64,000 nucleotides of DNA from positions 186,001-250,000 of the forward strand of contig VUYT01000017.1 in NCBI GenBank assembly GCA_008802785.1. The letters run 5' to 3'. The translations under genes and the position numbers were made by a program. The notes under the pieces were generated by a model, which made no database searches, was not told the origin of the DNA, and saw only the letters and a program-made list of their open reading frames with translations. Numbering within the stretch: position 1 is the stretch's first letter; each line of letters begins with the position of its first letter. The stretch comes from Symmetrospora coprosmae (lineage: Eukaryota; Basidiomycota; Cystobasidiomycetes; Symmetrosporaceae). Shown piece by piece: positions 15,055-49,597 of the stretch.

Positions 15055-15611
15055 CCCGCAACCTAGATTTCCATCCGACACGGACAATGGCGTTGTCATC
15101 GCAGAAGTCAAGCAGTGTATGAAGCGCGTTTGAAGTGCTGCACGATGTCCACGTACGCTGTAGCCAACATGAGCTCCTACAGCACGCTGGCTGCTCGGTA
15201 GACGGCGTCTCTCCTGACTGTCCCTGACCTCCGCACTTCAGCTGATGGCTGATACGGCAGCTGCTGCTATAATGCAGCGCCACCACTGTCTTTCCTTACT
15301 CCACAGAAGCAGCTGGACCGCGGTCAAAGGGATCGCGTCTTTCCCATGACTTCGCCGGGGGCCACTCGATTTGCCACTCTGCACAGGACTGACATCGGGC
15401 CCCAATAGCTGGCGGCCAGGCTACAAAAGCGCGAGCTGAGCCAGCTCACCTCTCTCTCTACTTCCGATGCGATCCACCGCTCCTCGGAACCCTTTACATC
15501 TAGGTAGCACCCCTCCCGCACTCACCTACTGCGTCGTACCACTGCTATCGATCAGTCCGCCTCCTGCCAGGACAGTCACCTCTTGAACGCAGATCAACGC
15601 TTGCTGAAAGC
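15055..15611 (+). promoter_or_regulatory. family promoter block of copy A
   Basis: From about 15240 this stretch is similar to the blocks in front of copies B (44208-44731) and C (46690-47135). Shared marks in order: CCACAGAAgCAGCTG near 15301, GGTCAAAGGGATCGC, TTTCCCATGACTTCGC, ATTTGCCACT, GGACTGACATCG, AGCTGGCGG, then a TATA-like TACAAAAGCGCG at 15422 followed by a CT-rich tract. The ATG lies 190 nt downstream of the TATA-like box. Confidence 0.75.
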
Positions 15612-17608
15612 ATGTCCCGTAGCCAATCGCCCCGCGGTCCACCTGATGGGTAAGTCACGCTTAAGTGCATTTATCGCCTGACTTCCACATTCCAAAGCTG
15701 ACGGCCAAATTGCCCGCCTCACAGTGTCCGGTATTGCAGGCTCATGCTAGAAAAGGGGTCAAATAGACACTGGTGAGCTTGCTACTCGGACATTGGCGCT
15801 GCTGGAACATTGCTAAGTTCATTCCTTCACACCAACATCTTGCATGGCACGATACTACGGTTACGCCAGCTCATACAAGTACCTTAGTCCAGAGGACGAC
15901 CACGTATACATCAGCCACAAACAGAACCAGCATCCCAAGGCATAGTGAGCGAACTCTAACCTTGCGGAAGTGCGGAAGTGCGGAAGTGCAATATCCAATC
16001 TCTGACTCTACTCCCAGCCAAGAGGAACTTGAACGCCGCGAGAAAGAGCTGTTGCGGAGACTGTCACCGTTTGCATCGTGCCGGAATTCGCCAAACCAAG
16101 GAGCCGGACCCCGTACCGGACCTGGAGCGCTTGCCACGACAGTCAGGAATCGCTCAGCATCCCCTTCGTCCTGGACAGGCGAAGGCAAGGCGCCCGACCG
16201 GTCATCTGGCGGCGCACCTCCTGAACACTCGCAGCACCGAGGCCGCTCGGTAGTGTACGAGCCAGGCCGCGGGACGTCATCCCGGGAAGCCGTTCCGGAG
16301 TCATCAACATCCGGACCACGCGGTCCATCACCACCCCGCAGTACCACGCGGTCTCCTCACCCAAGAGATCAAAGTTCAACCTCCGAACGCTATGAACCGG
16401 CAGATTTCGTTCGTAAGCCAATTATGGCCTTACTGAAAGCTTGGACAGCTGGCACTCTGCCGAAAAAGTTTCAGCACTGGCTTGAGCGAAACGAAGGAGA
16501 CTATGGGAAGGGGGACCAGGCTATCTGGGGCTCTACGATTGCCGCTTGGTATGGCAACAGCAAGATCGACAACGACGAGAGAAGCGAGTTCGGGGGCATT
16601 GTGCTCGGAACATTCACAAAATACTGTCAAACCAGATCGAAACTAGGGGCCAAAGTCTCCGGCAGGACGACACCATCGACGCGGTTCTATGCGCGCCTGC
16701 TCTCTCTTGAACAGCAGCCCGAGCGCACTCCCTCTCCCTTCAAACCAGCTGTTACTCGGAAGCGTCAGGGTCATCGGCCCGTTAGAGAGCTACTACACGA
16801 GCAGGTCAAACTCATCAAGGCAGGAACTCATATAGAGCAGCTGATGCTCGACATGCCCGGTAATATGGGTAGAATACCGTGGCTGGCGTTGCTGCAAGCA
16901 ACTCTCACAGCGCTCGAAGTCTCCGATAAGGGAGTCGAAGAACTGGGTGGAGTGGCAGAAGCGCTTGGCGACAGGGTCCACGGCGCTCTTTGTACCACGT
17001 TCAGGGCTTGGGATGACCTGGATGTCGACAAAGTGCCGCTCGACAATCCCAGGACTAAGCGCCTCGCGCCACTATACGTAAGTATCAGAAAGACTCTCGC
17101 ATCCAGATCACAGCCGTCAATCTCGCCGCAGCTCGACAACGCAAGGCTCAACAAGGTGGGCGAAGGCAAGGGAATTAGCCATCACGCATTGGTCTGGATA
17201 TTGCGGATACTCTCTGGCGAGAATGAGCCGGCAAAGCGGCAATACGCAGACATAGACAAGATTGGAGAGTTCGACATCAGCGCGATGAGGAAGCTGCACG
17301 CCATCAACAAGAAAGCCGTGGAAGTAGCCTTGGGCTATAAATCGGCATACGAAACGAGCGAGTCTCTCAGAAACCTTGATAGAGCGAGAGCCGCGACGAC
17401 CACCCACGAACCTTTCGTGCAGGTCTGGCAAGACCTGAAGGTACTAAAGAATGCTACCGATTTGGCGAGCGTTAGATCCATGAAGGATCTCGAGGGTATG
17501 CGGGACGGGTATGCGAAATCGGAGGAAGGTCGCAAGGTCTTCAGGTACACGCAACCTGGCCTGTCCTCCTCCCGGAAAAGATCGCCCACGCCAGGTCCAT
17601 CCACCTAG
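15612..17608 (+). CDS. unrecognised repeat-family protein, copy A
   Basis: Proposed exons 15612-15649, 15740-15772, 15818-15878 and 15971-17608 join to 589 aa. The first three were found by matching the 5' exons of copies B and C. I recognise no known domain. After short N-terminal exons (MSRSQSPRG; TNILHGTILRLRQLI, compare copy C THVIFQHGRQYLEVAQKI) comes a coiled-coil-like QEELERREKELLRRL. A long Ser/Pro/Arg-rich linker follows, then two modules shared with B and C: one beginning KPIMALLKAWTAGTLPKKF and one holding YADIDKIGEFDISAMRKLHA. Copy A has an extra central segment of about 110 residues. The tail is SP-rich (RKRSPTPGPST). The exon 4 acceptor lies in a three-unit 8-bp tandem repeat (15963-15986) with a good branch-like CTAAC just upstream, so it is the least certain join. 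Confidence 0.6.
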
Positions 17609-18753
17609 ACGGCACCCGTCACCACAAGCCTTCTCCAAGCTCCCTGCACCTTGCGCTCGATTCTCCGTCGGCTCGCAGCACTTCAGACGACTTGAGAACC
17701 CTAGACAACTTAGACAACTTAGACAATTTAGACAACCTAGACAACTTAGACAATACTCCTAGCGACCCTGTATTGCTCTGTGACGACATAAGCTGCAGGA
17801 TTGAGCGCGGAGAGCTGGTGACGGCTCCGGAGGAGGCATCGCTCCGAAGGGCCTGAGCGTGACTGCAAGAGGAGCATAAGCATGAGCGAGCGAGCGACAG
17901 AGGGCGAGAGGGCAGCAAGGGCCACAGGCGAGGACCAGCTTCGATGTCATCTCGAGCTTGAAGCGTCCCGAACGGGCAGGACCCCGGAAAAAGCCAGTGA
18001 CCGCTGGGTGTTTGGGTGACTGTCCGCGACGTGGAACCTCCGTGATAACAGCAAGCATGGGCGAGTCTTCCTCAACGAGGAGTCGAGTGCGCTTGCATGC
18101 TCAACGTTTTCGGTATATATGGAGTCCCGCTGTCCAGGACTGCGTCGGGAATTGGCTGGATGGGAGGTTCCACGTGAAATGCGATTCAAGCGAGGCCCAG
18201 GGGCCGCACTCATCGATGAGTCTCAGCCCGGGGCAGCACGTCAGGTCGTAGACGGTTTGAGTCAGTCTGCCAGTCAGTGTGTGCATGTCTGGTGCATGTC
18301 ATTCAGGCCCGTCGCCTTGTCTACGCTTGTCCGTCTCTGCATCCTCGGTCACTCCGACGTCGGATCTTCTTGCTGGCTGCTGTCGGCTTCCGCGGTCGGG
18401 CTTCAGCGCTTCAGTTGATGAGGAATCCGAGAGCGCCCACCCAAGCAGTCTTGGTCATTTCTCCCTCGCTCTCATTCGCACTTCTCGGCCCCTCTTGCGC
18501 ACCACTACGCACACACGAGGACATCCAGCGTGAGCAGGAACTGCACAGTCGCCCCGACCTGGCTGGGCTTTTGGTTATTCATTCGCAAGGGACGGGTCAG
18601 CGACCGAGCGAGCGCGTCACGCACGTCGTGACAGGCGCGGGCGTTTGAGTGAGAGCGGGATCCAACAGCAGGAGAACACACAGAGCGCAGGAGAGCACGC
18701 ACTCTGGCAAGGATGCGACGCAGTGATAACTAGACTGCACTCTACCCGACACC
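17609..18753. other. intergenic region between copy A and the kinase gene
   Basis: About 1.1 kb hold the 3' flank of copy A, with a 9-bp tandem repeat, and the promoter and leader of the kinase gene. Open frames here look random, and no gene is supported. Confidence 0.5.
17702..17755. repeat. six-unit 9-bp tandem repeat, TAGACAACT
   Basis: Six head-to-tail units, three exact and three with one or two changes. A related CCTAGACAACTTAG motif lies 3' of copies B (near 46317) and C (near 49199), so the repeat has grown from a motif of the family 3' end. Confidence 0.9.
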
Positions 18754-21700
18754 ATGCTATCGCGCTCGAGCGCCTCAAACAGCCTGTCGCTGGCCGCTTT
18801 GGAGGCGGAAGGGGACGGAGGGCCTTCGTCCACGGCGATGGCAGAGGAGGAGGACAAGCACTCTCACTCTGTCACCGCATCGCTCGTCACGTCTTGCTCG
18901 ACTGCTGCGACACCGCCTGTGGCCTCTGTCGCTGTCGTGTCTTCGCCGGACTCGTCCAGCCTCACCGGCTCTGGCCCTCTGTCGGCTCCTCCCCTTAGAC
19001 CCGGCTTCACTCGACAGCAGTCGGCTTCATCCACAAAGAGCAACAGCTCTGCACGACTGCGCCAGCAGCTCCAGCACAACCACCACCAGCAGCACAGCTC
19101 GCACACACCCTCAGGCTCGCTGTCCTCGCTGCCGTCCCCGCGTGACAGCATAGGCAGTGGGGTAGGAGGGGGAGCAGGAGGAGGAGGGGCTGGAGCTGGA
19201 CCAGCTTCCATAGCCTCGTCTGCCTCGTCAGGCAAGACTGTAGGCGCAGCATCGTCCACTGCAACTGCTGCTGCAGGGAAAACAGGCCACACATCGATGC
19301 CGTCTCCAGCTTCCACGCTGCTCTTCGACGGCAGCGCCCATCATGCTGTCGCCCGTCAGCAGGAGCAGCGAGAGCGATCGACAGCCAACCTAATAAATGC
19401 GAGCATCATCAGCTCGCCCACATCACAGGTGACAGGAGGCTACCGCTCGTCCACGCGCCCACCCTCCAAGCGCACATCGTCGTACAACAGCCCAATCGCC
19501 GGGCTCGTCTCGTCCTCCGTCCCAGTGACAGTCCCAGCGTCTCTGGCCCGCCAGCGGCCACTGAGCATCTCTCCGCCGCTGGCGATCCCATCGCCACTGC
19601 CATCACCACCGCTCCTCGACAGCCTGAACCTTCACTCGTCAGCAGGTGTGTTGCCTCCGCCTGCGCCCCTGCCCTTATCACACGAGGAGCTCGCCCTGCA
19701 CAACCGCTCAACGCAAAGCGTGGGCCCGCCCCTGCAGCAGCAGCGCCATCGCAGCCATGCATTTGCAGCGATACAGAGCCGCTACCACCCCTCATCTCTG
19801 CGCACAGAGTGGAGGAACGAGGCCCTCGAGTCGCCGCTCCTATCGCCAGAAGCGGATGGCAGTAGCGGGGGCGTCTCACCCGGCGGCACGCGCAGGGCTA
19901 TTGCGATTCCAGGGTTGGGCTCGAGTCCACCGCCGATGGTCGACCTCTCCATGCTCCGCACACGCTCGTCCGAAGGCGGGACGGGGCAGTCAGCAGCGAG
20001 GCGTGGCTCCGGCGACGCCGCTGTCGTTGGCTTCCTGCCTAGCCCGGACCCATCGACCGCCTCTTCCTTCGCCTCCACCTCGGCGCACCACCTCATGCCC
20101 CTGCACGCGCACCCACACCCACACCCACACCGGACATCGTACCAAGGGCCACTGCACTACAACGGCAGCGTTTACAGCGACGTCTCGCAGCACCTCCCCA
20201 TCGCACCCGCAGCGACATCTGCCGCTTTCCGCGGGTCCATCTCTCCCCCGCGCGCAAGGGACTACGCTTTCGGTCTCAAGGCGGCCAGTGCTGGCGGGCC
20301 GGCCTCCGTCTCCTTGAAGGGCAAGGAGCGGGAAGTCGACAGGAACCGCAGCAGGAACCCATCGTCGTCGTCGTATCTCAGCGGAGGCGGGCACCCGCAC
20401 CCGGGCGACGGGCCGTACGACCAGGCCAATGTTAGCATGGACCTGCTGTCCAACGCCACGAATGACGTTGACACGGCCACGGATGTCGGGACTGACCTCG
20501 CGAGCGACGCGGGCGGGAGCGCAGTGCGCGAGACCGACAAGCTGTACTCGGCGAAGGACAAGACGGGCAGAAAGACCATCAATCAGTGGGTGCCTCCCTC
20601 TCTCGAGAATACATTCCGCACCCCCAGCTGACCAAGGCTAACTCCGTGCCGCACGCGCAGGTACGCCCGTGTCGCCGAGATCGGCAGAGGTGTGCATGGC
20701 CGCGTCTGGCTGTGCGAAGACACCGAGACGGGCGACTTCTACGCCATCAAGTGCGTCAACCGCGAGAACCGCAAGACGATAAAGTCGCTCAAGCGCTCGC
20801 AAGCCGAGGCGGAAGCGGCGCGGCGGCGCGTGTATGGACTGCCAGAGCATGACGAGGAGGAGCTAGGTGGCTCGGTAAAGGGCAGTCGCGAGGAGCTGCG
20901 CTCGTCCCGGGCGCCCAGCCACGGCAGGAAGTCCGCGACCAGCCTGGAGCGGCAAAGCCAAAGTCGGGGCGGTGCAGGCAAGAGCTGTGAACACCTGGAC
21001 CGGCACGAGGACGGCGGAGACCGGTCTTTCGACGCGCAGAATGGTCTCGACCACGATCACGATGCCAACGACGACTCCCTCGCATCACTTCAGCGCCGTT
21101 TATCGGAGCAGCGCAAGAAGCGACCCATTGTCATGGACGAGAAGGTTAAGCAGGAGATTGCAATCATGAAACGATGCCATCACGAACACGTCGTGCAGCT
21201 TAGAGAAGTCATTGATGATCGCAGAAGCAAGAAGATCTTCATGGGTGAGCGGCGCTCGCAATTGCCGAGAATCGAGATGATCTTCGCGCTGACAGCTCAT
21301 GCTCTTGCCAGTCCTCGAATACATGCCAGGAGGGCAGGTCGAATGGACAAAGAACGACGAGCCACTCATGACCGTCGACGACTCGAGACGAGCGTTCAGG
21401 GACGTCGTGCTTGGGCTAGAATATCGTGAGGGAGTCTTACGCTTCATGTTTCGATGCTGCCGAGCTTACATTCCCTTGTCTCTTGCTCCCAGTCCACTAC
21501 CAAGGCATCATCCACCGCGACATCAAGCCCGCCAATCTGCTCTGGACGCAAGACCGCCGCTGCGTCAAGATCTCCGACTTTGGTGTCTCGCACGTATCGG
21601 AGGCGCTTGCCCGAACATCAGCGGCAGATCCGGCAGGAGGAAAAGTCGGGCTCAATGACGATCGCGCTCTCCGCAAGACTGAAGGCTCACCGGCCTTCTT

Positions 21701-24515
21701 CGCGCCCGAGCTATGCGCAGCCGTCGAGACGACGCCCGTTGGCACGCCCGTCAACGAGCTCGAGAGGACGGCCAGTCGGCCAGACTATTTCCGCCGACAG
21801 TCCAACAAGTCTAGCCTGAACGCCGAATGGGCAGGAGCAGGCGGGACCGTGCGCGCCACTGCCGACCTCTCGCCGTTCTCGTCCATGCAGGCCGTCGAGG
21901 CTGCTGCAGCCAACAAGCGGCCGGCGCATATTAATCGCGCGTCTACCCAGACCATCACAACCATCTCGCACCCGCTCTCGGCGCAGCAGCAGCAGGCTCA
22001 CCGCATCCGCGCGAGAGAAAGGCCCGTCGTAGGGAAAGGGATCGACGTGTGGGCCCTCGGTGTTACCCTCTATTGCCTGCTGTTTGGGTACACGCCTTTC
22101 CACGAGGCGACGACTGAATACGAGCTGTACAACATGATTCCGCGGAAGGAGATCACCATTCCTGCTACCATGGGCTCCGACAGATTGTCCACTGGCAGCG
22201 GGGTGCCGTCGGACTTGGCAGCAACGAGCAGCGAGTACGCAGAGGGTAGAGAGGTCGTCGACCTTCTGGCTCGTCTGCTAGAGAAGGATCCTACGAAGCG
22301 AATTGGACTGCATGAAGTCAAGGTGAGCAAGACTCTCTAGGCATCGGTCTGCACCAACAACCGTGCTGACTTTCTGTCAACCTCGCAGAAACACCCCTGG
22401 GTCCTGCGGAACCTGGAGAACTCGACGAACTGGCTCAAAGACCACGACCTGGCCGAAACGCGGGTTGTGTCCGTTACCGAAGAGGAAGTCGAGCACGCTA
22501 CGGCAGAGCGGACAGAGCCAAAGGTTCCATCAGGACTCAAGGCCTCGCTCAAGCGATTCGGCGATATCTTCGGCATTGGCGGACAGACTTTTCTGCGCAA
22601 GTCTGCGCGTAGAGACAGGAGCAAGAGCGTGAGCAGCACGTCTGCGTCCATCACTACAAGTGCCTGGGACGGTCGAAGCGAGTCTGCCGCGAGCCGGACT
22701 GCCAGTCGGCAAGCTAGCATCGTCAAGAAGAAGCCGTCGAGCCACTCCACCCGAATGGTGGGGTCCGGTGGCTCGGAGGAATTGCCGCAGCCGACGCTTG
22801 TCGAGCATCAAGAGATGGACTCTAGCGCTCTGATGTCGCATGCTTCGGCGTTGAAGCGGAAACTAGTCAACGCCAAAGCTGCCCGGGAGGCACACGAAGC
22901 GGCGCTATCGGTCTCGTCATCGTCTCCTCCAGAGACGACTGCGGACAGGCATCGTTTGGCTTTCTATGCCAGTCAGGGCCAGCGTGACCCCCTTGCACGC
23001 TCGGTTTCTGGCGAGTCGACCGGATCAGCCTCGCATGAGGGCAGTCAGCCGACTGCCAGCCGGCGGCAATCCCTCGGCCTCCTTCTGCAGCCGCCGGCGA
23101 TGATGCAGCGTCGCGTGTCAACAGGAACGACAGAAGCGCAACAGCGAGCGTCCAAGGCTGCCTCGTCGACTCTGACGCTCTCGTCACACTCGGCATCGTC
23201 AACATCGGCCAGACCGTCCATGTCGGCTTCCTCCAGGCCCGCCTCCCAGTATTCGGTCAGCAAGGTGGACAGCGACCACGAGGGACAATTGACTGGCCGG
23301 ATCAAGAGCATGTGGAACAAGCTCCGGTCAGGCTCGCGGACGCCAGCTTCGCGTCAGCGGTCTGAGTTCGGCACGCCCAAGCGGGATGTGCAGCTGCAGC
23401 TATCGCGGGAGAACACCGCGGCCTCCACAGCTGCTCCTGCGCCCATGACGAGGGCATACAGCGCAAAATCTGCAGTGCCCGCGACTGCGTCTGCCAAACG
23501 CGCCGATAGCTCCTCGCACAGGAAGATACCCTCGGCACAGAGCCCGGGTAGCACACGCCGTCCCAGCGTGGAGAACATTATCTTCTCGCCAACTTCTTCC
23601 GAGTCTCGTCCCTCGTCTCAAGATACCGACCCCGAAGCGCGCCCGCCTTTCCTGCCCACCGACGGTCACGCCAAGCAGATCGAGGCGCGCCTTGCTGCTG
23701 CGGAGGCTGAAGCTGTGCGAGGTCGGATCGCAACCTCTGCTGCCGTCAGCGGAGTCGCCGCATTCCGAGCGAGCGGTGGTGCTGCCCGAAACTTGCCCGA
23801 AGAGGTTGTCAGCGAATCGAGCGACTCGTCTCTGGACGACTTCGACGAAGACGATGACTACGGTGAGGCGATCTCGCCTCTGGAGCAGGAAGACTTCGGC
23901 GGAAACGTTACGCAGCCGAGCAGCTACAGTCAGCCACCTCCGCCGCTCATGTGGAGCAACGCCAGTGGAGGCTGGCAGACTGGGCCGGGCGCCTCTACAG
24001 ACCCGCTCGGTCGCTTCCTGCGACAGCAGCCATCGCGCGCCAACTCCGAATCTGGCTCATCCTCTGCCAACATCACCACCACTGCCGTTGAGCGGGAGGT
24101 TACGCCGCGCGCCACGAATCGGATCAGTCTTGTCAGTATGCCAGACGGTCTCAGTCAGGAGCGGGAGCGTCTGAAGACGCCTGAACCCGCCTACCGCCAC
24201 AGCAGCAGCCGCTCGAGCTCGAGCAACGGCTTGCGCCCGCCCATGTCGCGGGATGGGAGTGTGGACAAGCTGCGAACTGCTCGCCTGCCTGCGCCACCCT
24301 CACCTGGCCGCTTGTCCGATATGGGTCTGGCCGGGAACGTGGCGGACGACGAGAACGATGACGATGAGGAGGAAGAGGTCATGATCAAGCCTCGCTCTCG
24401 CTTGCGCCGCGGCACCAACGCCAGCACGGGAGCCAGCACGCCCCAGTCGACAAAGCCGTCCTCGCCGACATCGCCCAGAACGCAAAGCCATTACACTCCG
24501 CTCCTGCCCATCTAG
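18754..24515 (+). CDS. large CaMKK/Ssp1-type Ser/Thr protein kinase
   Basis: Five exons (18754 to about 20589, about 20661-21244, 21312-21425, 21493-22322, 22389-24515) give about 1,829 aa. This kinase type activates AMPK-like kinases in fungi (Ssp1, Sak1/Tos3/Elm1). A 610-residue low-complexity Ser/Pro-rich N-terminal region comes first. The kinase domain then shows IGRGVHGRVWL, YAIKCVN, a family-typical long insert, KKRPIVMDEKVKQEIAIMK, VLEYMPGGQV, IHRDIKPANLLW, KISDFGVSHV, an expanded activation segment with GSPAFFAPEL, and DVWALGVTLYCLLFGYTPF. KKHPWV and about 690 residues of polar, Ser-rich tail follow. All catalytic residues are present. The join of exons 1 and 2 is not clean: a donor after INQW (20590) and an acceptor before TACGCC (20662) leave one G too many, so either the join is non-canonical or there is a one-base sequence error. 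Confidence 0.88.
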
Positions 24516-24962
24516 ACTCCGCTCCCGCACTCGAGAAGCCAGAACGGAACCAACGATAATACTGTGTAGCTGTTCTTTCGCGCATCCGCGAACACCACTC
24601 TCGCTACAATCATGTCAAAGGCCTTACGCATGTCGCCCTGCTCCGGACTTTTTCCCTGCGTGTTACTCTAGAAGTGTCCTTCGCTGCTTTCTCTCTTCGT
24701 AACGTATTCAGGAAGTCTGGAGCACGATGCATCCTGCTGTTTTTGCGAGGTTTCGATCAAGACGTGAGGAGTGAATCCGGCTGCTGCATGACTATCACGC
24801 GAGTGCTCCGCGTGGGCTTTTACTATGTGAGAAGATAGCTCATGCATATAAATGGTGTACATACAGGGTGACAGCTGCCTGCGGTGCTTTACATGATTAG
24901 CCACTACTGTGCAATTTCCTACACTCCAGATCTGTGGCCCATTGGCATATTTGGTCGGCCTG
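24516..24962. other. convergent intergenic region
   Basis: 3' flanks of the kinase and transporter genes. No gene is seen. Confidence 0.5.
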
Positions 24963-30554: not shown

Positions 30555-30691
30555 GTTCGCGAATACCAGTAAAGCATGTCCTTCCAACCGCACATGCTAA
30601 AAAAACGGAGGAGGAACATGCGGCGTGCTAAAGACGGCGATACCTTGGCAACAACACTTAACGAAAGCCACTGCGACCCCGCGGATTCCTA

Positions 30692-33600
30692 CTAATCTGA
30701 AAGAACGATGACCTCGTTGCTTGCGACTGATGCTCTGACTTTCTTCTTCTTGCCGGTTTTACTGCTACCTCTGGCCTTGGCCCTGGCCTTGCTGGATGCT
30801 GCCGATACCGACGCCTTGCCTGGCTTGCTACCGGACGACTCAGCCGGCTCGCTGCTCTTCTTGACTCTCTTGCGCGGCGCTCTCTCGCTCTGCATATTCT
30901 CCTTCTCATCTACTGGCGCTTCAGGCAGCCCGCCGTGAGTCTCGGCAGGCTTCCGGTTCGCGGGTTCGACGCTGGCGCTTATGCTCGCCGACTCCTTCCG
31001 CTTCTTCGCCGGCAAGGCCGCAGACGCCGACGCCGACTTTCGGGCCCTTTTCCGGCTTGCTTTCTGGCCGTCTTCGTCATCATCGCTGAGTAGCATCTCG
31101 TCCTCCTCAATGATCTCCTTGACCGAGCACAGCTCGACATCGACACCCGCGGAGAGCAGGACGTCGATCCACACCTTCTGCGTTTCGGAGAGCACGTCCC
31201 CTGGCCCTTTGACTTCGCTGAAACGGCAGACCTTGCGCTCGTAGTTCCAGAGGCTAATCGTCAGTAAAGCAGACTTTAGCATTGAGCTGACACAGCGGGT
31301 TTCGGGACCCTGCTCACAATAGATCAGGCACGCCCCCGACTCGGTGCGACCACTCTTCAGCGTAGACGCGGCAGATGGCGACTAATGCGGTTGGCGTAAT
31401 GCACTGCATATCGGGCCGGGAGACAGCGGTCAGTCGGTGATCATGTCCGATGGTCATTCGCAGAAGAATGCCCACCTGGATGATCTCGAGTAGGTCCTCG
31501 CGCTCATATGCCCATCTCACGCCCACGCAGTACGTCTTCTTGTCTCGTTCTCGCTCGTCTGTGGCTGTCAAGAGCTCCAAGGCCCGGCCTTGCTCGATGT
31601 CCTTCAGGCGAGCTTGGACCTGCTCGCTTCGTACTAGTAGCAAGTCAGGGCCACGATGTCAGCCACGACAGCCCCGAAGTGCCAGTTCATGCGCACTCAC
31701 CGATTGCGAACGCATCGGTCGACAGGTCGAGGGGGCCCGACTGATAGGCAGTCTCGAAGACGCCTTCGATGGGAAGGAAGATGACGTCCCAGAACAGGAG
31801 CGCAAACTGCGAGCCGGGTGACGTGAATGTGACCTTTGTCAGCTCGATGAGCGCACTCGCTCTGACCCCACAAGTGCGATTCCAGCCCACAATAGTCGTC
31901 AAGATGCCATTCTCGCTGTGAAAGCCCTTCCACCCTTCCTTCTCGTACCCTTCCAGCGCCAGTTCCTCGACCGAGACCTCTTTGCCGTCCTTTGCGGCGC
32001 TCCAGATTGAGTGCTTGCCCGTTTCGCCCTCGTCGAGCCTCTCGCCCTTCATGACGCGCTTCCTCGCCGCGCGCAGCGAGGCAATCTTGAACTGGGTCGT
32101 GAAGTCTGCGCGGTCCTCGTCTGGCACGGAGAGCGCCTTCTCGAGGCGGACGATGCGGCGCGCGAGCGAGTTGTGGTAGATCAGGTGCGTCCAAGGGTGC
32201 ACCAGCCCTTCGCGGCACAAGGCGAGCGCCTCTTCCTTGTAGGCTGTGAGGCGGTCGCTGCTGTCCATTTCTTCGTCATTATCGCCTTCGTCGTCTTCGC
32301 GGGCATCTCCCGGCCCAGTGCTGATGGTCCGCCTGACCTTGCCGCTGCCGAAGTGGTGCATGAGCACGAGCGCCAAGCGGTCATACCACTCCCCGCGCTT
32401 GCCGCGGCGGAAGCACGACTGACCGAGCAGGGAGCGCAGCACCTCGACTTCCTCCTCGTACCGGTGCAGCTTGGCGAGTATCTGCGACCCCTTCCAGACG
32501 ACGCGGGTGAGCGGCCAGCCTGCGAGGAACCGCTTGCGGTAGTATGTCAAGCGGTCGTCGAGGTCCGGCGCCTCTGTAAGCTTGCCCGTCCCATTCTCGC
32601 GGACGAGCTTGCCCTCCTGCAGGTCCTTCTCCTGCGCTTCCTGGACGAGCCGCTTCCAGCGCGGATACACCTCCTCGAACAGCGCAAACCCTTCCTTCAG
32701 GCCGCGCTCCCGCTCCTCCCGCGAGAGCTTCTGCTTTCCCCGCCCGCGGGACGGGTCGAGCGCCTCGCCCATGCACGTCTCCATCTTTCTTTCCATGATG
32801 AGCGCGTCCTCGTAGTCGAGGAGGGCCTGGCGGTCCGCAAAGATGGCCACGCTCCGCTTGACCGGGTACACTGGGTAATTGCGGATGCGGAATCGCGCCA
32901 GCACAGCTTGCGTGAGCGTCTTCTCCGAGTAGGAGACAGACCGGTAGTATAGGAGGTGCAGCCGCGCAAACAGGCGGATGGGCCCAGACTCGAGCTTGAT
33001 GCACGAGCCGAGGTGTGCAAGGGCTGCACCGACGACACAGAATCAGCTCGTCGCACTGAGGAAGCGACTCCCATCACTGCTGTACTTTGCTCACTCTTGT
33101 GTATGAGCAGCTCGGTCTGCCGCACGACGAGCGGCTTGCCTCCATCGTCCGAGCTGCCGTTGCTTGCTCGCCCTTTACCCTTGTCTTTGCTCTTGCCCTT
33201 CTTGTTTGAACTCTGCGTCTTGCGCTCCGCCATGCGCTTCATGCCCTGCTCAAACATGCTCCGCAGATTTCCCTGCCCATTCGCCGTCCGCTTGATGCCG
33301 TCCATGAGCGCCGCGCGCGTCGTGAGCTTGTTGCTAACGCGGACCTCCTTGCCGAGCAGCTTGAGCTCGTCGAGGCTGAGGAGCGAGAGGAGCTCGTCGA
33401 CATCCGAGCGGAGGGCGAGGACGCGCTCCGAGATTGCAAAGCGCGAGAGGCCGTACTCGAGCGTGTCGGAGGCAATCTCGGGGACGGGGCGGTCGACAAG
33501 CGGGTCGATGGGCGCAGAAGGGAGCGCGCTGGTGCTTGCGACAGGGTAGTGGATTTCGTCGCTCGGGCCGTCTCCTTGCTCGTCATCGTCATCATCGTCG

Positions 33601-34502
33601 ATCACGATGATCTCGGACGTGTCGCGCTTCGACGTGCTGCTGCCCTCGGACGCGCTCGAGGAGGCTCGAGACGGTGCAGACGGGCGCTCTTCAGGTGCTG
33701 GAGTAGCCAGATCCGAGAGCGACTCCCCGGGCGCCAGACACAGCTCGTTGACGGTCTGCTGCATGTTGGCAATCTCGTCGCAGTACGCAAGCTTTACGAC
33801 GCGGAACCAGCCGTTCTTGCGCGAGAAGAGCCTGACAAAGAGGTAGCGCGCTTCGTCTGGTTTGCGCCATTGCATCGTCTCAGCTGGGTGTTCGCCTCTG
33901 ATAATTCAACGCGTGCTGGCGCGCCGCTCACACGACATCTGGCTGAAGCGCGCAATCGTCTCGCGCTCCTCGTCGTTGAACAGGAAGGCCTCGTGCTCGA
34001 GCACGGTGTGTATCATCTCCTCGAACACCTGCACATAGTACGAGATGCGCTTCTCCTGCGGCACTTTTGCGTCGAGCTCTGCCAGAATCTCGTCGTTCTC
34101 GTCTGTGTCTGAGGCGCCTGGCTCGGGCGAGGCGGACGCGAAGGCGTCCCGGGGCAGAGCGACGCGTATCTCATCGCCGTACTCTCCAGTTGTGTCGGCT
34201 GTCGTGTCGGCCAAGCTGTCTTCGTGGTCTGGCTCTAGCTCCAGCTGTGGCTCTGCGTGCTCGTCTGCCTCAGCGTCCGACATGGCGTCGGTTCTCGAAG
34301 CAGCTGGGGAAGGTCGAGCCAGCTCGCCATGCTCCTGTGATATCAGCTCGAGGGGGGATCCGCTCGCCGCTTCCTGCTGTGCTGTCGTGTGCGAGAGCCC
34401 AATACTGGCGAAAGAGCAACCCCTAGCAGAGACGCGACTGACTGGGTGGACCCCAATCGAGGGTGGCGGCTGGCGGGGGAGGACAGGGTAGAGTAGACGC
34501 AT
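30692..34502 (-). CDS. FAN1: FAN1 nuclease (VRR-NUC), interstrand crosslink repair
   Basis: Six minus-strand exons (34502-33934, 33897-33095, 33023-31701, 31633-31476, 31403-31318, 31253-30692) join in phase to 1,166 aa. FAN1 is a structure-specific 5' flap endonuclease of DNA interstrand crosslink repair. Seen: ARYLFVRLFSRKNGWFR for the SAP-side N-terminal domain, a TPR-like helical middle (EEVEVLRSLLGQSCFRRGKR), the conserved AIVRSEQVQARLKDI, and the catalytic VRR-NUC motifs GGVPDLFLW and FSEVKGPGDVLSETQ near 975-1005. A basic nuclear tail follows. I see no N-terminal UBZ finger. Two in-frame starts are possible. ATG 34502 adds 73 residues that begin with an Arg-rich, acid-free stretch. ATG 34283 (MSDAEADEH) gives 1,093 aa. 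Confidence 0.93.
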
Positions 34503-34990
34503 GGGCGATGACAGAGCACAGAGAGACCATGTAGCATATCATGCCGGGTCCACTACTGTCAGATGATTGGGCTGCTCCTGTACACGTTCGCGTCCGTCAT
34601 GGAGCTCGCGGTTGGATGCGACTCCCGGTGGCGGCTGACGGGCGCGTCCGTGCGACCAGCAGTACGTACATATGTCCTCCGGTGCATGGCCGCGACGAAG
34701 AGCACCTCGCACTGCCACGTACGACCTTGCATATGCCATCCAACGCACCTTCCTGCACCGTGTCCTTATCCAAGCCCCCGCTTATGACGTTCTCCTGTCT
34801 GACGTGTGACGTGCATTGTGTGTGTCCCCCTGTTCCGGGCTCCCAGACCCTCCATGACGTTCGCACCCAGGGGCCCTGGACTACAAAAGCGCAGGCTGGA
34901 CCTCCCTTCTCCTCTGCTCTGCTTCGCATTCTCACATCTGACTGCGCTACTTACTCCCGTCCCACTTTCAACTCACCCAGCTGCACAACC
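34503..34990 (+). promoter_or_regulatory. divergent promoter region; TATA core of the DM9 gene
   Basis: A TATA-like TACAAAAGCGC starts at 34882. It is preceded by GCACCCAGGGG and followed by a CT-rich run with CCTCTGCT, and it lies 109 nt before the DM9 ATG. The same order of motifs is found in front of copy C of the unrecognised family (GCACCCAGGG, TATAAAAGCGC, CCTCTCCTCTGCTTCG). The rest of the stretch serves FAN1 on the other strand. Confidence 0.55.
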
Positions 34991-36242: not shown

Positions 36243-41053
<4,811 letters not shown>

Positions 41054-41297
41054 GGTGCCGATACTGAGATGATGAGTGCGTGTGAGAGGGAGAGTGGCTC
41101 TGCCTAAGGTGAGTTGCTCGGGCCTGAGTGGCGAGTCACGGGTCAGAGGAGAGGCATTGTAATCCCGACCGGCGCGGTGGACATCAGTGTTGTCAGAGAC
41201 GTTGGCCAAGACGCTCGAGCGATGACAGTGCATGCAGTATATGAAATGGCAACAAGGAGGGTCGCTGTACTGAGGCGGTGCTTGCTTCGGGCCGAGC

Positions 41298-42416: not shown

Positions 42417-42594
42417 GGCTGTGCGTGATGGAGGGTGCGAACGGGACAAGGACAACCACTGCTCGAAGGGAGGTCGTCCTGAAGCGGCGCACGTGATGGA
42501 AGGTGGATGCATGCAGTGGAGAGCTCTGATCACAGCCCTTTTGCAGTCCATCCATACGCTAAGCTACATGCTGAGTCAGCTGTACCGTGCCTCT

Positions 42595-43997
42595 CTACTT
42601 CCAGTCGTACTTGGGCTTGTATCCGAGCTCGCGCTTGGCCTTCTCTATCGACAGCAGCGAGTCGTTGGGCCCGCTCGTCGCGTTGTACTTGACGCCCGGG
42701 AAGCACGCCTTGACGAGCTCTTCGTTAGGCGTGCGCATACAGGTATTGCTGTTGGCAACCAGGCTGCGCGCAGAGAAGGAGGTCATGTCAGCGATTCGAG
42801 GGTCGTGGGCGACCATCTATCTGGCATGTCCGAACTCACTACTGGTGGTGCCCCTTCTTGTCTGACTGGAGAGCCAAGTGCACGGCCTGTGCTCCGTCTC
42901 TGGCATCGATGTATCCCCAGCTGCGATGAAGTCGCGATATTAGCCATCGTCCTGCGCCCGGAAGCCAAGGGAAGCCTCGATGAAGCGAGGGAAGCTCACC
43001 AGTTCCAGTATCGCGCCTTGGGATCGCTCTGCCAGTTCTCGAAACCAGCGTACTCTTCAGGAAGCATGACATTGCTGAAGCGCATGCTCATGATCTTGAG
43101 CTCGGGGTCCCAGCGCGTGTACTGTTCAGCCATGGTCTCGCCCATGAGCTTGCTGAGCGAGTAGGCCGACTCTGGACGGCGCTCGTTCCTGAGGGACACG
43201 CAATGCAAACATGTGTCAGTTTGGTGCGTGTGCTAGGCGGCTGCTGCCTGTGCGCCCGGCAGTAACGGTGAGAGGAGGTATAGAGACTCACTCCTCGGTG
43301 ATGGGCAGGTACTCGGGCATGTGCGGGTCGAAGGGAATACCGATAAGAGTCTCTGACGATGCTCTGTGCGAGGCGGATGGCCATTGAAGCAATCAGTCTG
43401 TGATGTCGCCACAGTGTCCCCGCTGATCAGGCTGGAACGGCAGCCCCACTCACAGCACGACATTTTTGATGCCGAGCTTGCGGCACGCTTCGAGAACGTT
43501 GTACGTAGCCATGGTGTTGACGCGGAACTGGTTGCTGCTGTTGGTCTGCCCCGGCGAAGGGATGGCAGCGAGGTGGACGACCGCATCTACCCCACGGTAC
43601 CCCATGTCGGTCGAGTGGAAGACCTCGAGGACGCTGCCCATATCGGTGAGGTCGATCTCGACGATGCGGTATGCAGGCGTGCCAGTCTTGCCATCCTCGG
43701 AAGCTCCAGCGGGGCGTCTGTTGCGTCGAGAGTCACAGATGGAGACAGCAGCCATGTATGGACGTCAGCGGCTCTGCTCCTCTCCACTCCGACGATGAGG
43801 GCGAGCTCCGCGATACAGCAAGCCAGAGGAACGCACCGGGTGTCGACGTTGATGACCTCGTACCCTTCATCGGCGAGATACTTCACGACGCTCCTCCCGA
43901 GCTTGCCGCTGCCTCCCGTTACGATGACGCGCTTGCTGGGAAGCTCTCGCTTCGCCTCCCCAAGGGCGCGGTCTGCAGTGAAGGATGAGGGAGCCAT
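42595..43997 (-). CDS. NAD-dependent epimerase/dehydratase (extended SDR)
   Basis: Six minus-strand exons (43997-43837, 43717-43454, 43363-43292, 43188-43000, 42920-42840, 42763-42595) join in phase to 311 aa. The product is an extended short-chain dehydrogenase of the nucleotide-sugar epimerase type. Seen: RVIVTGGSGKLGRSVVKYL for the NAD-binding loop, VEIDLTDMGSV, VVHLAAIPSP, NTMATYNVLEAC, LASSETLIG, and the catalytic YSLSK with the upstream Ser. WGYIDARDGAQAVHLAL follows, then LGYKPKYDWK at the end. All catalytic residues are present. The substrate is unknown. The promoter faces that of copy B of the unrecognised family. Confidence 0.9.
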
Positions 43998-44207
43998 GGT
44001 GAGACTGATATGTGCGTACTATCTACAGGGCTCGGGTGAGGATGGTGAGGAGGAGAAGGAACGGGAGCGCTCCTCGCCAGCATGAAGCAGCTCCGAGTAC
44101 GAAGACCGCGGAGGCTTTCGCCGTCATCGGTGGTGTCCCCCGCCGGGGCATTACTTGCGAGCAACACCCGATATGGCGGTACTTTTCCTCAGACGACATG
44201 CTAAAGC

Positions 44208-44731
44208 CACGACGGACGATGGAGTCTCCCTCGAGTCAGCTGGCTTGTGCCCGACATGACCCGTCGAGCCTTGCCATCCCAGCTTTGCAGAGACCTGTTG
44301 ACCTGCGCTGCCCAGCTAATGCTCTGCATGACAGCTGCTGATCTCGCTGCAGCGCCGCTACTGTCTCGTGCTGACCCCACAGAATCAGCTGCATCGCAGT
44401 CAAAGGCATCGCAGTTTTCCCATGACTTCGCGGAGCTCGACTCGGTTTGCCACTTCTGCACCGGACTGACATCGTCCCCCATTAGCTGGCAGCGGGGCCA
44501 TAAAAGCGCGAGCAAATCAAGCGAAGCTCTCTCTCTCGACTCGCTCCAACTTCGTCACATCAATCCTATCCATCCTCGACGGGACTCAGACCTCGAGTCT
44601 CCTAGCTCGGACCCTGACTCGGTGAGCGTGCTCATGTGCATGTCTCCGAGCGGCGCCTGCGCTGCGTCCCTTCGCAGTGAATCGTTGATCCTCAATCTAC
44701 TTGACCGCCATTACAGAGACATTGCAAAGAC
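44208..44731 (+). promoter_or_regulatory. family promoter block of copy B
   Basis: Similar to the block before copy C over its whole length and to copy A in its proximal half. Seen: CCCACAGAATCAGCTG near 44379, GCAGTCAAAGGCATCGCAG, TTTCCCATGACTTCGCGGAG, TTTGCCACTTCTGCACCGG, and a TATA-like CATAAAAGCGCG at about 44499. The ATG lies about 230 nt further on. Confidence 0.78.
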
Positions 44732-46237
44732 ATGTCAAGACCGTTTGGCTACCCAGCCCGTGCTTCGGCGGAGTAAGTGGAAGGATCGAGGGTAGGATGG
44801 CCAAAACTCGCAGCGGACGTTGACATTCTGCGCGTACCAACCTCCAGACTTGTACCATGCGGGTACCTATACGACAACAAATCCCACATACCGCCGCAGC
44901 AGCAAGGCCAACCATGGTGAATCTCAATCAGCTCTGAGTCATTTGGAAACAATGACACTGATGACGAACGGTTGCCACTTTTCTTGCCCGCCCGCCCTCT
45001 GCTCGGACCTTCGGTGCTGTCTGCCCTCTCTGCAGCACCGAGCGACTACCTAGAAACAAGATGGCTGATCATATAGCATTCCATCATGGACAGAGGCTGT
45101 ACGTGCCAGTCTGACATCACGACAGCCAGTGTTCTGACCAATCTCCTTCCACACCTACGCGACTGAAGGAAAGCACCGACATCGGCACCCGCGGCTCAGC
45201 CTCAGGGAAGTCTTAGCCATGAGAGAGGCCGCGAGCCTATGCGTGACGCGCCACGTGTTGGAAGGCCGACAGGCACCACCTCACGCAGCTCGGGCCTGCA
45301 GGCTGCCTCACGTTCGCCGTCCCGGCCGACAACATCGCCGCCTGGCGTGCCGCACAGTCGTGTACGCGCGACTCCCACGAGGCGGGGAGCCTCCTCACGC
45401 AAAGGTAAAGGTAGAGCGGATGGTGAAGTTGGACAGCCGAACACTCGCATAGTATCGGCGGACAATGGCACCCTCGACTACCAAACATTGCCTATCCGGT
45501 ATCTCCTCGATGGTGTCCTCAATAATGACTTACCCCCTCGATTGCGGAATTGGTGGCAAGTCAGCAACGCCAAGACCTTCGGGACTGGCGAGCATGCAGT
45601 TACGCTCTCCGAAGTCATGGCTTGGTACGAGACAGCCTCAAAAGACGACAAACACCAATACTGTTCAGCTACCACCGGGTCGGTGGTCAAGCTATTCAGA
45701 AAGCTCGCTCAGGATGGTTGGAACACCCCGAGTCACCATTCCCCATCTCTAGAATGGTACAAGAGACTGCGCAAGCTGCCCTTGCCAGACGGCGAGGGGA
45801 GGCCATACAACCATCAATTGAAGCACGTCCTGTCATGGCGCGCAGAAGGTGAATGGCACAAGCATACGTACAAGGACATCAAGCATGCCGGCCCGTTCGA
45901 GATCTCACTCATCGACAAACTGTACGCCATCAACCCGAGCAGATTTGCGAGGTTCGGCGAAGTGAGCTTCTCAAACTTCAACAGCGGGCTTGCGGAAATC
46001 ACGAAGAAGGTCACGAACAGAAACTTTACCGAGACAAGCGGTAATAGAGAATCTACTCGGGATTGGTTGAACATTTTATTCGACCTGAGGGCGCTGGAGC
46101 AGGCCCAGCCCGAGGAACTTGCTGGAATCAAGTCGCCCAAAGCTCTCGCCGCGCTTAGGGCTCCTTCACGGAGCGGGAGCCCAGCGCGGAGCAAATCTCC
46201 GCCCACGCGAAAGCTCGGTTCCTCGTCCGCCAGCTGA
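44732..46237 (+). CDS. unrecognised repeat-family protein, copy B
   Basis: Four exons (44732-44772, 44848-44916, 45036-45098, 45169-46237) join in phase to 413 aa. The first three exons all end in phase 2, as do those of copy C. No known domain is recognised. Exon 2 ends CGYLYDNK...GQP and exon 3 has DHIAFHHGQRL, both alignable with copy C. A Gly/Ser/Arg-rich linker leads to module 1 (LPIRYLLDGVLNNDLPPRLR, GTGEHAVTLSEVMAWYE, WYKRLRKLPLP) and module 2 (YKDIKHAGPFEISLIDKLYA). The tail is SP-rich (SGSPARSKSPPTRK). Basic, with no signal peptide or membrane helix, so nuclear or cytosolic location is likely. It is clearly a paralogue of copies A and C. Confidence 0.7.
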
Positions 46238-46429
46238 TCCGCACAACGTGTCGATCCTGCCCGCCAGCCCGTACTTCCGATACTCCTCACATCTACAGAC
46301 CGTGCCTCACGCAACCTAGACAACTTAGCTGACTTGATATCAGACACTTTAGATGCGCTCTTCCGATACCTTTATACCGTTCTTGATCCTCAGACTGACG
46401 AAATAAAAGCCCGAGTAGCCAGAGATCGG
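46238..46429 (+). other. common 3' flank of copy B
   Basis: It shares with copy C the order CCTAGACAACTTAG, CAGACACTTTAGATGCGC, TCTTCCGATACC and GACGAAATAAA, the last being a likely poly(A) signal. Divergence is low enough that the two flanks align without effort. Confidence 0.75.
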
Positions 46430-46625
46430 ATGCATAGCCAGAACGCGCGACCCTTGTTCCCGGCTGCAGCAGTGTGGGGCGACAAATGACCAATCCGACG
46501 TGCCTGGATGGTAAGCACGACGTTCCTGTGCCGAGGGGCACCCACACTCCTTTACAGTCCGCTGCTTGTACGGCTCGCGGTGCACATTCGCACAGCGGCA
46601 AGACCTTGGCGCCGAAGATGCTCGA
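46430..46625 (-). pseudogene. fragment of the APN2 zinc-finger end
   Basis: On the minus strand this segment matches APN2 positions 49720-49915: the sequence around SSIFSAKVPPLC, the intron and the GRF-finger exon. It retains GCCAAGGTCTTGCCGCTGTG against GCCAAGGTCCCGCCGCTATG in APN2. The reading frame is shifted after the first finger Cys, and EPCKQW has become EPYKQR. It has no gene body and is a relic of the tandem duplication. Confidence 0.8.
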
Positions 46626-46689
46626 CTAGGGGTCCATTAGCATGACACTGCAGATGCTCGACATACACCTCCGCAGCCTCAATAGAGAA

Positions 46690-47135
46690 GGCACGACGGC
46701 AGATCAATGTCACCCGAATCAGCTGGCCTCAAAATACTGGACTAGCCGCGGAGCTTTGGCCAGCCGAGCCCTGCAGAGAGCTGCTGACCACTGCTGCCCA
46801 GCTGACGCTCTCTGTGACAGCTGCTGATCTTGCTGCAGCGCCGCTACTGTCTCCTGCCTACCCCACAGAATCAGCTGCCTTGCAGTCAAAGGCATTGCAG
46901 ATTTCCCATGCATTCGCGGAGCTCGACTCGATTTGCCACTGCTGCACCGGACTGACGACGTCCCCCAGTAGCCGGCACCCAGGGTATAAAAGCGCGGGCA
47001 GGATCAGAGCACCTCTCTCCTCTCCTCTGCTTCGTATCCATCCGCCCCATCACCTCCTCCTCAGCAGCCGAATCCTATCAACTTCGACTTTGGAGGACCT
47101 CATCGTCGAACATTCGGCACCTATCACGAACCGCC
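46690..47135 (+). promoter_or_regulatory. family promoter block of copy C
   Basis: Seen: CCCACAGAATCAGCTG near 46861, GCAGTCAAAGGCATTGCAG, TTCCCATGCATTCGCGGAG, ATTTGCCACTGCTGCACCGG, a perfect TATAAAAGCGCG at 46985, and a CT-rich tract. The ATG lies 151 nt downstream of the TATA box. Confidence 0.8.
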
Positions 47136-49122
47136 ATGGCCTCCAACGCTCAGTATGCTACATGCCAACTTTCTGCTGATGTAAGAGTCGAGGTGGGTAC
47201 GTGCGCTGAGCCATACTGTCACAGGACAATCAAATGCCCGTTCGTCTTCGGCAAGCAGACCAAATACCCTGGCCAGCCTTGGCGAGTCTCTCCCACTGCA
47301 CGGGCTCAGCACACATTGTCGACAACCACAACACGCCTAGGACAATCTGCTGACTTCACGATTCACCGCTTGCAGCAACGCACGCTTGGTCTTCGGGAGC
47401 GAGGATGACAAGGCGAACGACACGCATGTCATCTTCCAACATGGGAGACAGTACCTTGAAGTGGCTCAAAAGATTGCAAAGTGAGCCCTCTCTGGTGCGA
47501 GCGAGGCGATGCAGCGCACTCATCCACATTACGTTTCTACTGATGCATTGCTTGTTCTCGCTCCACGTTCATATTCTGCGCTTACTCCTTCCTCGTTGAC
47601 AGCAGCGAAGATCAGGTCGGGGCTGCAGCTGAAGCAGAACGCGTACAAGTCAGAAGACAAATTCAGATGGCAGCGGAAGCAGCCGCAGCTTCAGCCAGAC
47701 GAGGACGGGCGCCTGCGCCTCAGCGCGAAGCGCCTGGGCGTGGGCGGGAGGTTCGTCAGGGCGGCGTTCCCGCTTCCGCTCAAGAGACGAAGCACAGTAG
47801 ATCGGTAACGAGAAGAGTTACACAGCCCATTGGACCAAAGTCGGCCGGAACGTCCCCGTCGCGCAGTGCTCAAAACCCGCAGGCGTGAGCTGGGAATATC
47901 CAGGCATTCATGCTATGACTCTGAACTGACGTCCTGCTTTGAACCAAGGCCTTCGTCTGGGAGCGTGTGGAACCCTGTCAACTCTCGGGAACGTGTTCCC
48001 GGGACGCCCTCGCGTCTCCGCGGCAGTCCGGTCAGACAGGCTCGGACGGCCACTGTGCAGGATGACAATCAGGCGGCCATTCGAGGGCGGAGTGCGAGTG
48101 GAGGAGGTCACACAATGGTGCATGAAGGCTCTCAACACCGTAGCGAGAGCAGTGGCCGATCGCACTCCCAGCGCAGGCCACTTGCTGCAGGGTCGCAGCA
48201 GAGAGGTTCTCCTCCGCCCCGACAGGGTTCGCGCTCGCCATCTGACAACGGATTGAGGACATCTGCCACAGGTAAAGAGCCAGCGGTCGGTCAACAGTCG
48301 CGTGAAGGCTCGCCAGAGGGCATTGTTTCCAGCTCCCGCATGGACCGCAACAGAATTCAGTACCAGTATAATGCACAGCCGTTCAGAGTATTACTGGAAG
48401 ACATCAAGGCCTGCAAGCTACCTCCGGGAAATCATTCGTGGTTGAGAGACAACTGCTTCGGCGTAGGCGAACACGCCATCAAGCCGTCCGAACTTATCAG
48501 ATGGTTCGAGGACTCTTCAACCTCGGAAGCGGACAAGGAGAAGTATCTTGGCATTACGCCAAAGAAGGCGCGGCCAATCTTTGAGGACCTCGCCAAACAT
48601 GGTTACAACAGCACATGTCGCCGGAGCACCGCGCTTGACCTGTACAGAGTCGTACGCGGCCTGGATCTACCCGTCTCCGAAGATTCTCCTACTCTACATG
48701 CAGTGAAGAAGGTCCTTGAACAGCGTGCGATCGGCAAGTGGAATAAACAGCCGTACAATGAAATCACGAAGGCTGGCCCGTTCGGCATAGACTGTGTCGA
48801 AAAACTCCACGCACTAGACCAGAGTGCCATTCCTCGAGTAGCAGGCTCGATGATCTGGTCAAACTTCGGCAGGAGGCTCAATGACATGAGCAAGAGCAAA
48901 AGCAACATGCAGGATCGCACTGGTCTCCGCAGCGACACTAAGCGCTGGCTAGACGTCTACGATGACTTGGAGGCGCTGCAGCGTGCCAAAGAGCAAAATG
49001 TCATTGGAAAGATCAAGACACTCGAACATTTCGCAGCGTACAAGGCTGGAGAGCGCTTCGGAAGCCCATCCCCAGGGCGATCTCCATCCCCACGAAAGGC
49101 CGGCTCTCCCCCTGCCAGCTGA
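47136..49122 (+). CDS. unrecognised repeat-family protein, copy C
   Basis: Five exons (47136-47152, 47225-47281, 47376-47480, 47603-47884, 47949-49122) join in phase to 544 aa. The first four all end in phase 2. Intron 2 would need a GC donor (GCGAGT). No known domain is recognised. N-terminal exons hold CPFVFGKQTKYPGQP and DTHVIFQHGRQYLEVAQKIA, then an Ala/Arg-rich helical piece (MAAEAAAASARRGRAP) and a long Ser/Arg/Gln-rich linker. Module 1 (QPFRVLLEDIKACKLPPG, GVGEHAIKPSELIRWFEDS) and module 2 (YNEITKAGPFGIDCVEKLHA) follow, and the tail is SP-rich (SPSPGRSPSPRKAGSP). Basic, without signal peptide. The SP/RS-rich sequence suggests a phosphorylated nuclear protein, which is inference only. 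Confidence 0.7.
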
Positions 49123-49597
49123 TCCGTCCAACATCTCGATCCTACCGCTAATCCGCGCTTGTGATACGGCTCACATTCACAGACCGTGCCTCACGAAACC
49201 TAGACAACTTAGATGACTTAGATATTAGACACTTTAGATGCGCTCTTCCGATACCTGTGTACCGTTCTTCATCATCAAACTGACGAAATTAAACCCCGAG
49301 TAGCCAGAGACCGTTTAGGAGACGCGCGCTTGCGCTTTAGACTCATTTCCGGACTGCACAGCAGCAACGACACTCGGCCGTCTACAACAGACTGAATGGC
49401 TGACCCCGTCTAGGTGACCCGCCTTTCGTGCGCGTCCGCGGTGACTGCTGTATGCTTAACCCTGACCATGCGGCATTGCCTTGCTTTTCTTGCCTCTGCC
49501 TTGACTTCCTCCACTTCCGTTAGTAGCGGGTGCCGCGCGCTTTACATCGCTCTCCCATCTGCAACCGATGCAACCGAGCATTAGCCATTGCGCGCAG
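49123..49597. other. convergent intergenic region, 3' flank of copy C
   Basis: The first 190 nt are the common family 3' flank (CCTAGACAACTTAG near 49199, CACTTTAGATGCGC, TCTTCCGATACC). The rest has no counterpart after copy B. No gene is seen. Confidence 0.6.

Follow-up and report, generated by a model that had tools for sequence, protein, structure and literature searches.

What holds a gene family together when its proteins can barely be aligned with each other? The question is raised by a window of 64,000 bp (contig C8, 186001-250000; the genome comprises 20.05 Mb on 77 contigs) that carries three paralogous genes, designated here A, B, and C, with two further family members (D and E) located on other contigs. 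The window has a GC content of about 60%, and judging from the genome size, the introns, and the gene content the organism is a eukaryote and probably a fungus. We describe here the genes and their flanking regions, in which a promoter block of ~260 bp is shared by A-D and an array of TAGA[CT] repeats lies behind A, C, and E, with the flanks more conserved than the coding bodies. The reading we favor, at a probability of about 55%, is that these genes form a co-regulated family of fast-evolving, probably nuclear proteins.

The gene family and its members

The homology of A, B, and C, which an earlier note on this DNA had proposed, is demonstrated by BLASTP matches together with amino-acid identities of 37% between B and C (94/252 aligned codons), 30% between A and B (71/235), and 28% between A and C (69/250). 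The B-C match covers the entire C-terminal part, and the A-B and A-C comparisons contain second segments with E-values of 2e-08 and 5e-07 respectively; further small segments among the three (E-values of 0.47-8.4) are chance matches. The motifs that the earlier note had singled out (LL..LP..W, GxGxxAI..W, and Y..I...G.F.I....KL.A) are invariant in the three-way alignment, with the sole exception that AI is AV in B. The stop-free runs of B, C, and A (356, 437, and 613 codons) have probabilities per start of 2.8e-4, 4.3e-5, and 7.5e-7, and with ~2,900 stops on both strands about 0.8, 0.1, and 0.002 runs of these lengths are expected by chance; the length of the open reading frame (ORF) is thus insufficient to prove that B is a gene. 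However, the proportion of nonsynonymous differences between B and C (pN, 0.41) is lower than that of synonymous differences (pS, 0.66), and the reading frames of both are therefore under selection. The corresponding rates (dN 0.60, dS 1.56) give a dN/dS of ~0.38 as an average over 252 codons, and at this average no positive selection (dN > dS) is seen between B and C; dS is saturated for A-B and A-C.

Searches of the genome with A, C, and D as queries return A, B, C, and D, of which D lies on contig C18, its paralogy being supported by protein-search E-values of 3.5e-10 (query A) and 8.6e-11 (query D). A query built from the A-D consensus brought up one weak candidate each on C75 and C76. The C75 candidate was dropped (E-value 0.14, three stops, and a poor score), and the C76 candidate is a distant fifth paralog, E, a 319-residue ORF on a third contig with one family module (M1) and S/P-rich ends. 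E matches A, C, and B in BLASTP with E-values of 1.5e-05, 0.005, and 0.059 respectively, and its M1 profile score of 22.2 bits compares with a maximum of 7.5 among the shuffled controls (2198 scored of 4000 made). A profile search of the window and further genome loci gave, beyond A-D, matches with E-values of 2.3 or worse. The earlier note had supposed a large, expanding family, and neither word is supported: the whole-genome searches found five members, three of them inside this 64 kb, and the B-C pair is the only tandem duplication noticed in the surroundings of A-C. Five members is a lower bound, since the sequences of this family change fast and only top candidates receive a score in the search.

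We read the proteins as containing one to three modules, mostly helical, in the order M1-M2-M3 in A, M1-M3 in B and C, and M2-M3 in D, with M1 and a doubtful M3 in E. D is without a clear M1, and D and C have a C-terminal SP..GSP.AS ending in common. The modules have the look of copies of a single unit by eye, but as internal repeats of each other they were rejected, with hhalign probabilities of 2.3, 0.3, and 0.1%.

The description of the family as undescribed is borne out within the Pfam, NCBIfam, and PDB searches. No Pfam family matches A, B, C, D, or E (E-values up to 10, possible 5' exons left out), no NCBIfam family matches A-D, and there are no matches among PDB sequences to the A-B-C profile or to E alone; a PDB match of D alone (E-value 0.65) is attributable to chance. 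Rfam has no match to positions 14900-18000, the region searched. AlphaFold2 models from three-row alignments are poor, with mean pLDDT values of 56.3 for C and 44.5 for A, and the C model is locally better only in the M3 region (blocks of 61-92); a Foldseek search of the C model against PDB gave 20 matches at E-values up to 10, the best at 2.6 and none usable. In collections of viral and prokaryotic contigs no relative was confirmed among 86 and 105 pattern stretches respectively, and a viral or prokaryotic origin was rejected on that count. On these collections the family may be lineage-specific, as the earlier note had supposed. Among the literature titles and abstract beginnings matched there is no account of the family, although one may still be in print.

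Conserved flanks around diverged bodies

The promoter block terminates in a TATA-like box, CTACAAAAGCG in gene A, together with a CT-rich stretch. In BLAST pieces it is 84% identical between B and C over 275 nt, 79% between A and B over 205 nt, and 76% between A and C over 202 nt. D was located by its protein and its upstream DNA compared afterwards, and this DNA matches the blocks of A (74% over 141 nt, E-value 1.9e-13), B (70% over 179 nt), and C (73% over 92 nt), with local scores of 93 (A), 86 (B), and 58 (C), where the best of 100 shuffles each reached 27, 29, and 34. The proposal that the family has its own promoter block is thus confirmed, and extends to a gene on another contig. Among the four blocks, 103 of 252 columns are invariant and these are clustered, forming 59 adjacent pairs (a number that none of 2000 shuffles reaches) and a longest run of nine (reached by 83 of 2000). 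The invariant words of at least 5 nt are TGACC, CAGCT, TGCAGCGCC, CAGAA, CAGCTG, and TTTCCCATG, and such clustering fits putative factor-binding sites. The pattern CAGAAKCAGCTGN{20,32}TTTCCCATG, which was derived from the four blocks so that the matches to A-D are built in, matches only A-D in the whole genome, and its reversed control gives no matches. A looser pattern matches six places, two of which (on C13 and C33) fall outside A-D, within long reading frames that match neither the family nor the block, and its reversed control matches two.

A second shared element lies downstream. The 3' regions of B and C are 83% identical over 235 nt, in a match that starts ~14 codons ahead of the stop, and that of A has only the array in common with C (85% over 39 nt). 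The TAGA[CT] repeats are situated 93-138 nt past the stop in A (six), 78-112 nt in C (five, with one more at 215 nt), and 76-106 nt in E (four with a 10-nt period, and one more at 207 nt). In the 226,890 strand-bases scanned (the window and eight genome loci, among them L018 and L042, chosen because of D and E), at least four repeats cluster within 60 nt at three places, namely downstream of gene A, gene C, and gene E, in each case on the coding strand. B has two repeats (79 and 112 nt past the stop), as does D (6 and 47 nt), and among 14 other ORFs of the window nine are followed by none, three by one, and two by two.

The gene bodies behave differently. Identity at fourfold-degenerate sites is 23/49 for B-C (13.0 expected by shuffling), 11/29 for A-B (7.8), and 11/38 for A-C (11.5), so that the flanks are more conserved than the coding body, with 76-84% identity in the block among A-C and 70-74% to D, as compared with 29-47% at fourfold sites. 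The promoter is thus conserved in A-D and the 3' end in B and C, but the gene body is not. Between block and ORF, comparison of B with C gives ~40% identity in the 5' exons and introns, roughly the level of unrelated DNA. The earlier note had also ascribed a common small-exon 5' structure to the three genes; this is supported in part, by reading of the sequence, as a putative start codon in A and B is followed by GTAAGT after 38 and 41 nt, and C has a possible short exon. Look-alike peptides in the 5' parts, SPEDDHVYISH in A (15840-15960), DHIAFHHGQR in B (45040-45110), and GSEDDKANDTHVIFQHG in C (47376-47480), suggest by eye a putative common internal exon. We also note that VFG is present upstream of E.

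The B-C duplication and the APN2-like neighbor

The ORF adjacent to C, which we take to be APN2-like, has a remnant of its 3' end between B and C, presumably including a GRF zinc finger. The remnant differs by small indels, one of them shifting the frame by one base, and nothing else of the gene is present. It is 76% identical to the APN2-like tail, and therefore a segment with the gene and this tail was duplicated in tandem, giving B and C. The remnant is presumably neutral, yet it is less diverged than the B-C silent sites (dS ~1.56), and this gap may reflect conversion of the flanks, divergence of the bodies before the tandem arrangement (for example as old alleles), or constraint on the remnant as DNA upstream of C.

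If conversion were responsible, promoter and 3' flanks would be traded between B and C (and more rarely with A and D), whereas the bodies, by now too dissimilar for conversion, would go on diverging. The B-C identities of 84% in the promoter, 83% in the 3' region, and 76% in the remnant are compatible with this, as is the sharp drop in identity at the borders, with the 5' exons and introns no more alike than unrelated DNA. We nonetheless consider conversion an unlikely explanation, since the block is also present at D on another contig, its invariant columns are clustered in the manner of binding sites, and constraint directly accounts for borders that fall at the stop codon on one side and in the TATA/start region on the other.

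Old alleles present a different scenario, in which balancing selection beside the APN2-like gene, of the kind seen at recognition or mating-type loci, maintained ancient and strongly diverged variants and an unequal crossover of haplotypes placed B and C in tandem. In many ascomycetes the mating-type locus has APN2 as a neighbor, and the silent divergence of B and C, with 23/49 fourfold sites identical, is far above that of the co-copied remnant. However, A is even more diverged and yet is non-allelic, a constrained APN2 copy would make the remnant look younger than it is, and no mating-type gene was recognized among the scanned ORFs, and we regard this history as quite improbable. A search for STE3 found no match here nor in any of 14 control genomes, and is hence uninformative on a mating-type link.

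The duplication of gene and control region as a unit, the rapid divergence of the body, and the presence of members on three contigs would also be expected of genetic-conflict genes, be they selfish elements, meiotic drivers, or genome-defense factors, that evolve quickly through antagonism. This we judge to be rather improbable, as the average dN/dS of B and C is below one, no transposase is named by Pfam among 29 other ORFs of the window, strong inverted repeats are absent, and copies are few. Between positions 14000 and 50000 the inverted repeats amount to three pairs of 33-34 nt that are 73-74% complementary, and the block pattern, at just four places genome-wide, does not have the distribution of a transposable element. 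One pair (14511-14543/18671-18703, 33 nt, 73% complementary) flanks gene A at 4.1 kb, and is probably a chance occurrence.

The positions of all features are collected in Table 1. In addition, pieces of a FAN1-like nuclease (VRR_NUC, FAN1_TPR, and a weak FAN1_HTH in Pfam) lie at 30692-34538 on the reverse strand, so that two genes that we take to be DNA-repair genes, FAN1-like and APN2-like, are present within the same 64 kb.

Table 1. Features of genes A, B, and C, their neighbor, and paralog D. Positions are those of the window unless a locus is named; module borders are by our own reading.
Feature	Position	Strand	Basis and remarks
Promoter block of A	15206-15468	+	nhmmer, four-block profile (A itself one row), E-value 1.9e-75
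Possible first exon of A	15612-15649	+	Read from sequence; MSRSQSPRG..., then GTAAGT
Main ORF, gene A	15767-17608	+	613 aa stop to stop; BLASTP, three-way alignment
Modules of A	M1 ~16397-16714, M2 ~16769-17107, M3 ~17147-17521	+	
3' array of A	17702-17751	+	Motif count; six TAGAC repeats, 9-nt period, 93 nt past stop
Promoter block of B	44281-44545	+	Sequence comparison, profile search
Possible first exon of B	44732-44772	+	Read from sequence; MSRPFGYPARASAE, then GTAAGT
Main ORF, gene B	45167-46237	+	356 aa; BLASTP, three-way alignment
Modules of B	M1 ~45476-45778, M3 ~45779-46165	+	
Conserved 3' region of B	46238-46430	+	BLAST vs C; TAGA[CT] at 46317 and 46350, degenerate repeats between
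Remnant of APN2-like 3' end	46431-46630	-	76% over 200 nt to 49717-49913
Promoter block of C	46768-47031	+	Sequence comparison, profile search
Possible first exon of C	47136-47152	+	Read from sequence, tentative; MASNAQ, then GTATGC
Possible internal exon of C	47376-47480	+	Three-frame translation, tentative; NARLVFGSEDD...FQHGRQYLEVAQKIAK
Main ORF, gene C	47809-49122	+	437 aa; BLASTP, three-way alignment
Modules of C	M1 ~48367-48666, M3 ~48667-49038	+	
Conserved 3' region of C	49123-49313	+	BLAST, motif count; TAGA[CT] array, five repeats at 49201-49239
APN2-like ORF	49581-52109	-	Exo_endo_phos PF03372, E-value 7.6e-16
Paralog D	L018 4770-6344, contig C18	-	Protein search

Protein character and a model of shared control

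The proteins are basic, as had been claimed, with isoelectric points of 9.9, 10.4, and 10.0 for A, B, and C and a range of 9.9-10.5 for A-E. The accompanying description of the linkers as SP/RS-rich fares less evenly. [ST]P pairs exceed the expectation from composition throughout A-E (13 vs 7.7 in A, 8 vs 5.3 in B, and 13 vs 5.3 in C), but RS/SR pairs are only slightly above it (13 vs 11.0 in A, 11 vs 7.6 in B, 14 vs 11.9 in C, 14 vs 10.7 in D, and 12 vs 8.8 in E), and because they barely exceed expectation the RS-richness is mostly a matter of composition. The linkers are S/P-rich and probably disordered. A-E resemble the nuclear SR/RS-domain proteins in being basic with S/R/P-rich linkers and tails, although they differ in having no RRM in the same Pfam searches and RS/SR pairs near the expectation from composition. 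As to a cellular role, our guess would be a state-specific nuclear regulator or a chromatin- or RNA-associated protein.

In the model of co-regulation that we favor, one transcription programme would switch on A-D jointly through the common block with its TATA-like box, co-expression of these four being the most likely consequence of their shared promoter sequence. The TAGA[CT] array of A, C, and E would likely be bound by a single RNA-binding protein, or else by a factor acting in termination or processing, which would give it a putative RNA-level role. Selection would hold the control parts while the gene body evolves fast, and tandem duplication including the tail of the neighboring APN2-like gene accounts for B and C.

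Several known systems offer parallels. In the trypanosome VSG, Plasmodium var, Pneumocystis MSG, and snake venom PLA2 families the flanks are conserved and the coding bodies have diverged, and A-E are alike in that the copies resemble each other more in their regulatory or untranslated flanks than in the coding part. Such families tend to have large, often subtelomeric repertoires and to show positive selection; five copies (a lower bound) were found here, the B-C average shows no excess of dN over dS, and A-E look basic and nuclear rather than surface-exposed or secreted. The wtf genes of Schizosaccharomyces pombe, meiotic drivers that kill spores by means of poison and antidote products, are a fast-evolving family with conserved promoter parts, and A-E are likewise a fast-evolving fungal family of this kind, the likeness being one of description. 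In meiotic mRNAs of S. pombe the DSR motif UNAAAC is repeated and read by Mmi1, and a short motif likewise recurs toward the 3' ends of A, C, and E, although the motif here is TAGA[CT], with a period of 9-10 nt in A and E, and has no known reader protein.

A number of observations weigh against the favored reading. The evidence is drawn from DNA sequence and, for the probable nuclear location, from protein composition. E has no promoter block, either by profile search or by local scores (which 111-192 of the 200 shuffles also reach), and its M3-like stretch is non-significant on its own (0.5 bits, matched by 71 of 2282 scored shuffles). Little weight attaches to the two TAGA[CT] sites in B or the two in D because two of the 14 other ORF ends also hold two, and the motif was picked after the sequence behind A, C, and E had been viewed, such that the count was not blind; this is partially offset in that E was found by protein alone and no such cluster occurs in the remaining scanned sequence. 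The likeness of the B and C 3' regions may derive in part from recent duplication, as the presumably neutral remnant is still 76% identical. Finally, a genome DNA search with the block of C returned A, B, and C and missed D, and one with the block of D returned D alone; because of this such searches miss diverged copies, and they cannot exclude diverged blocks elsewhere in the genome.

A more speculative proposal, which we hold to be doubtful, is that the family is united by a control cassette and not by its protein. Copies would spread together with the block and the 3' array, which are more constrained than the body, and the nuclear protein would be a fast-changing payload, perhaps of a recognition or conflict system with its origin in ancient alleles next to the APN2-like gene. 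If true, the regulatory programme would be the conserved trait and the protein the changeable one.

The block is still recognizable between genes whose proteins are barely alignable, and the 3' array ties in E, where the block was lost or was never present. Lineage-restricted genes are usually traced by their proteins, which diverge past recognition, and control regions provide a handle for finding more members. This offers a way to ask what regulators act on such genes, and why the control regions persist longer than the proteins whose expression they direct.

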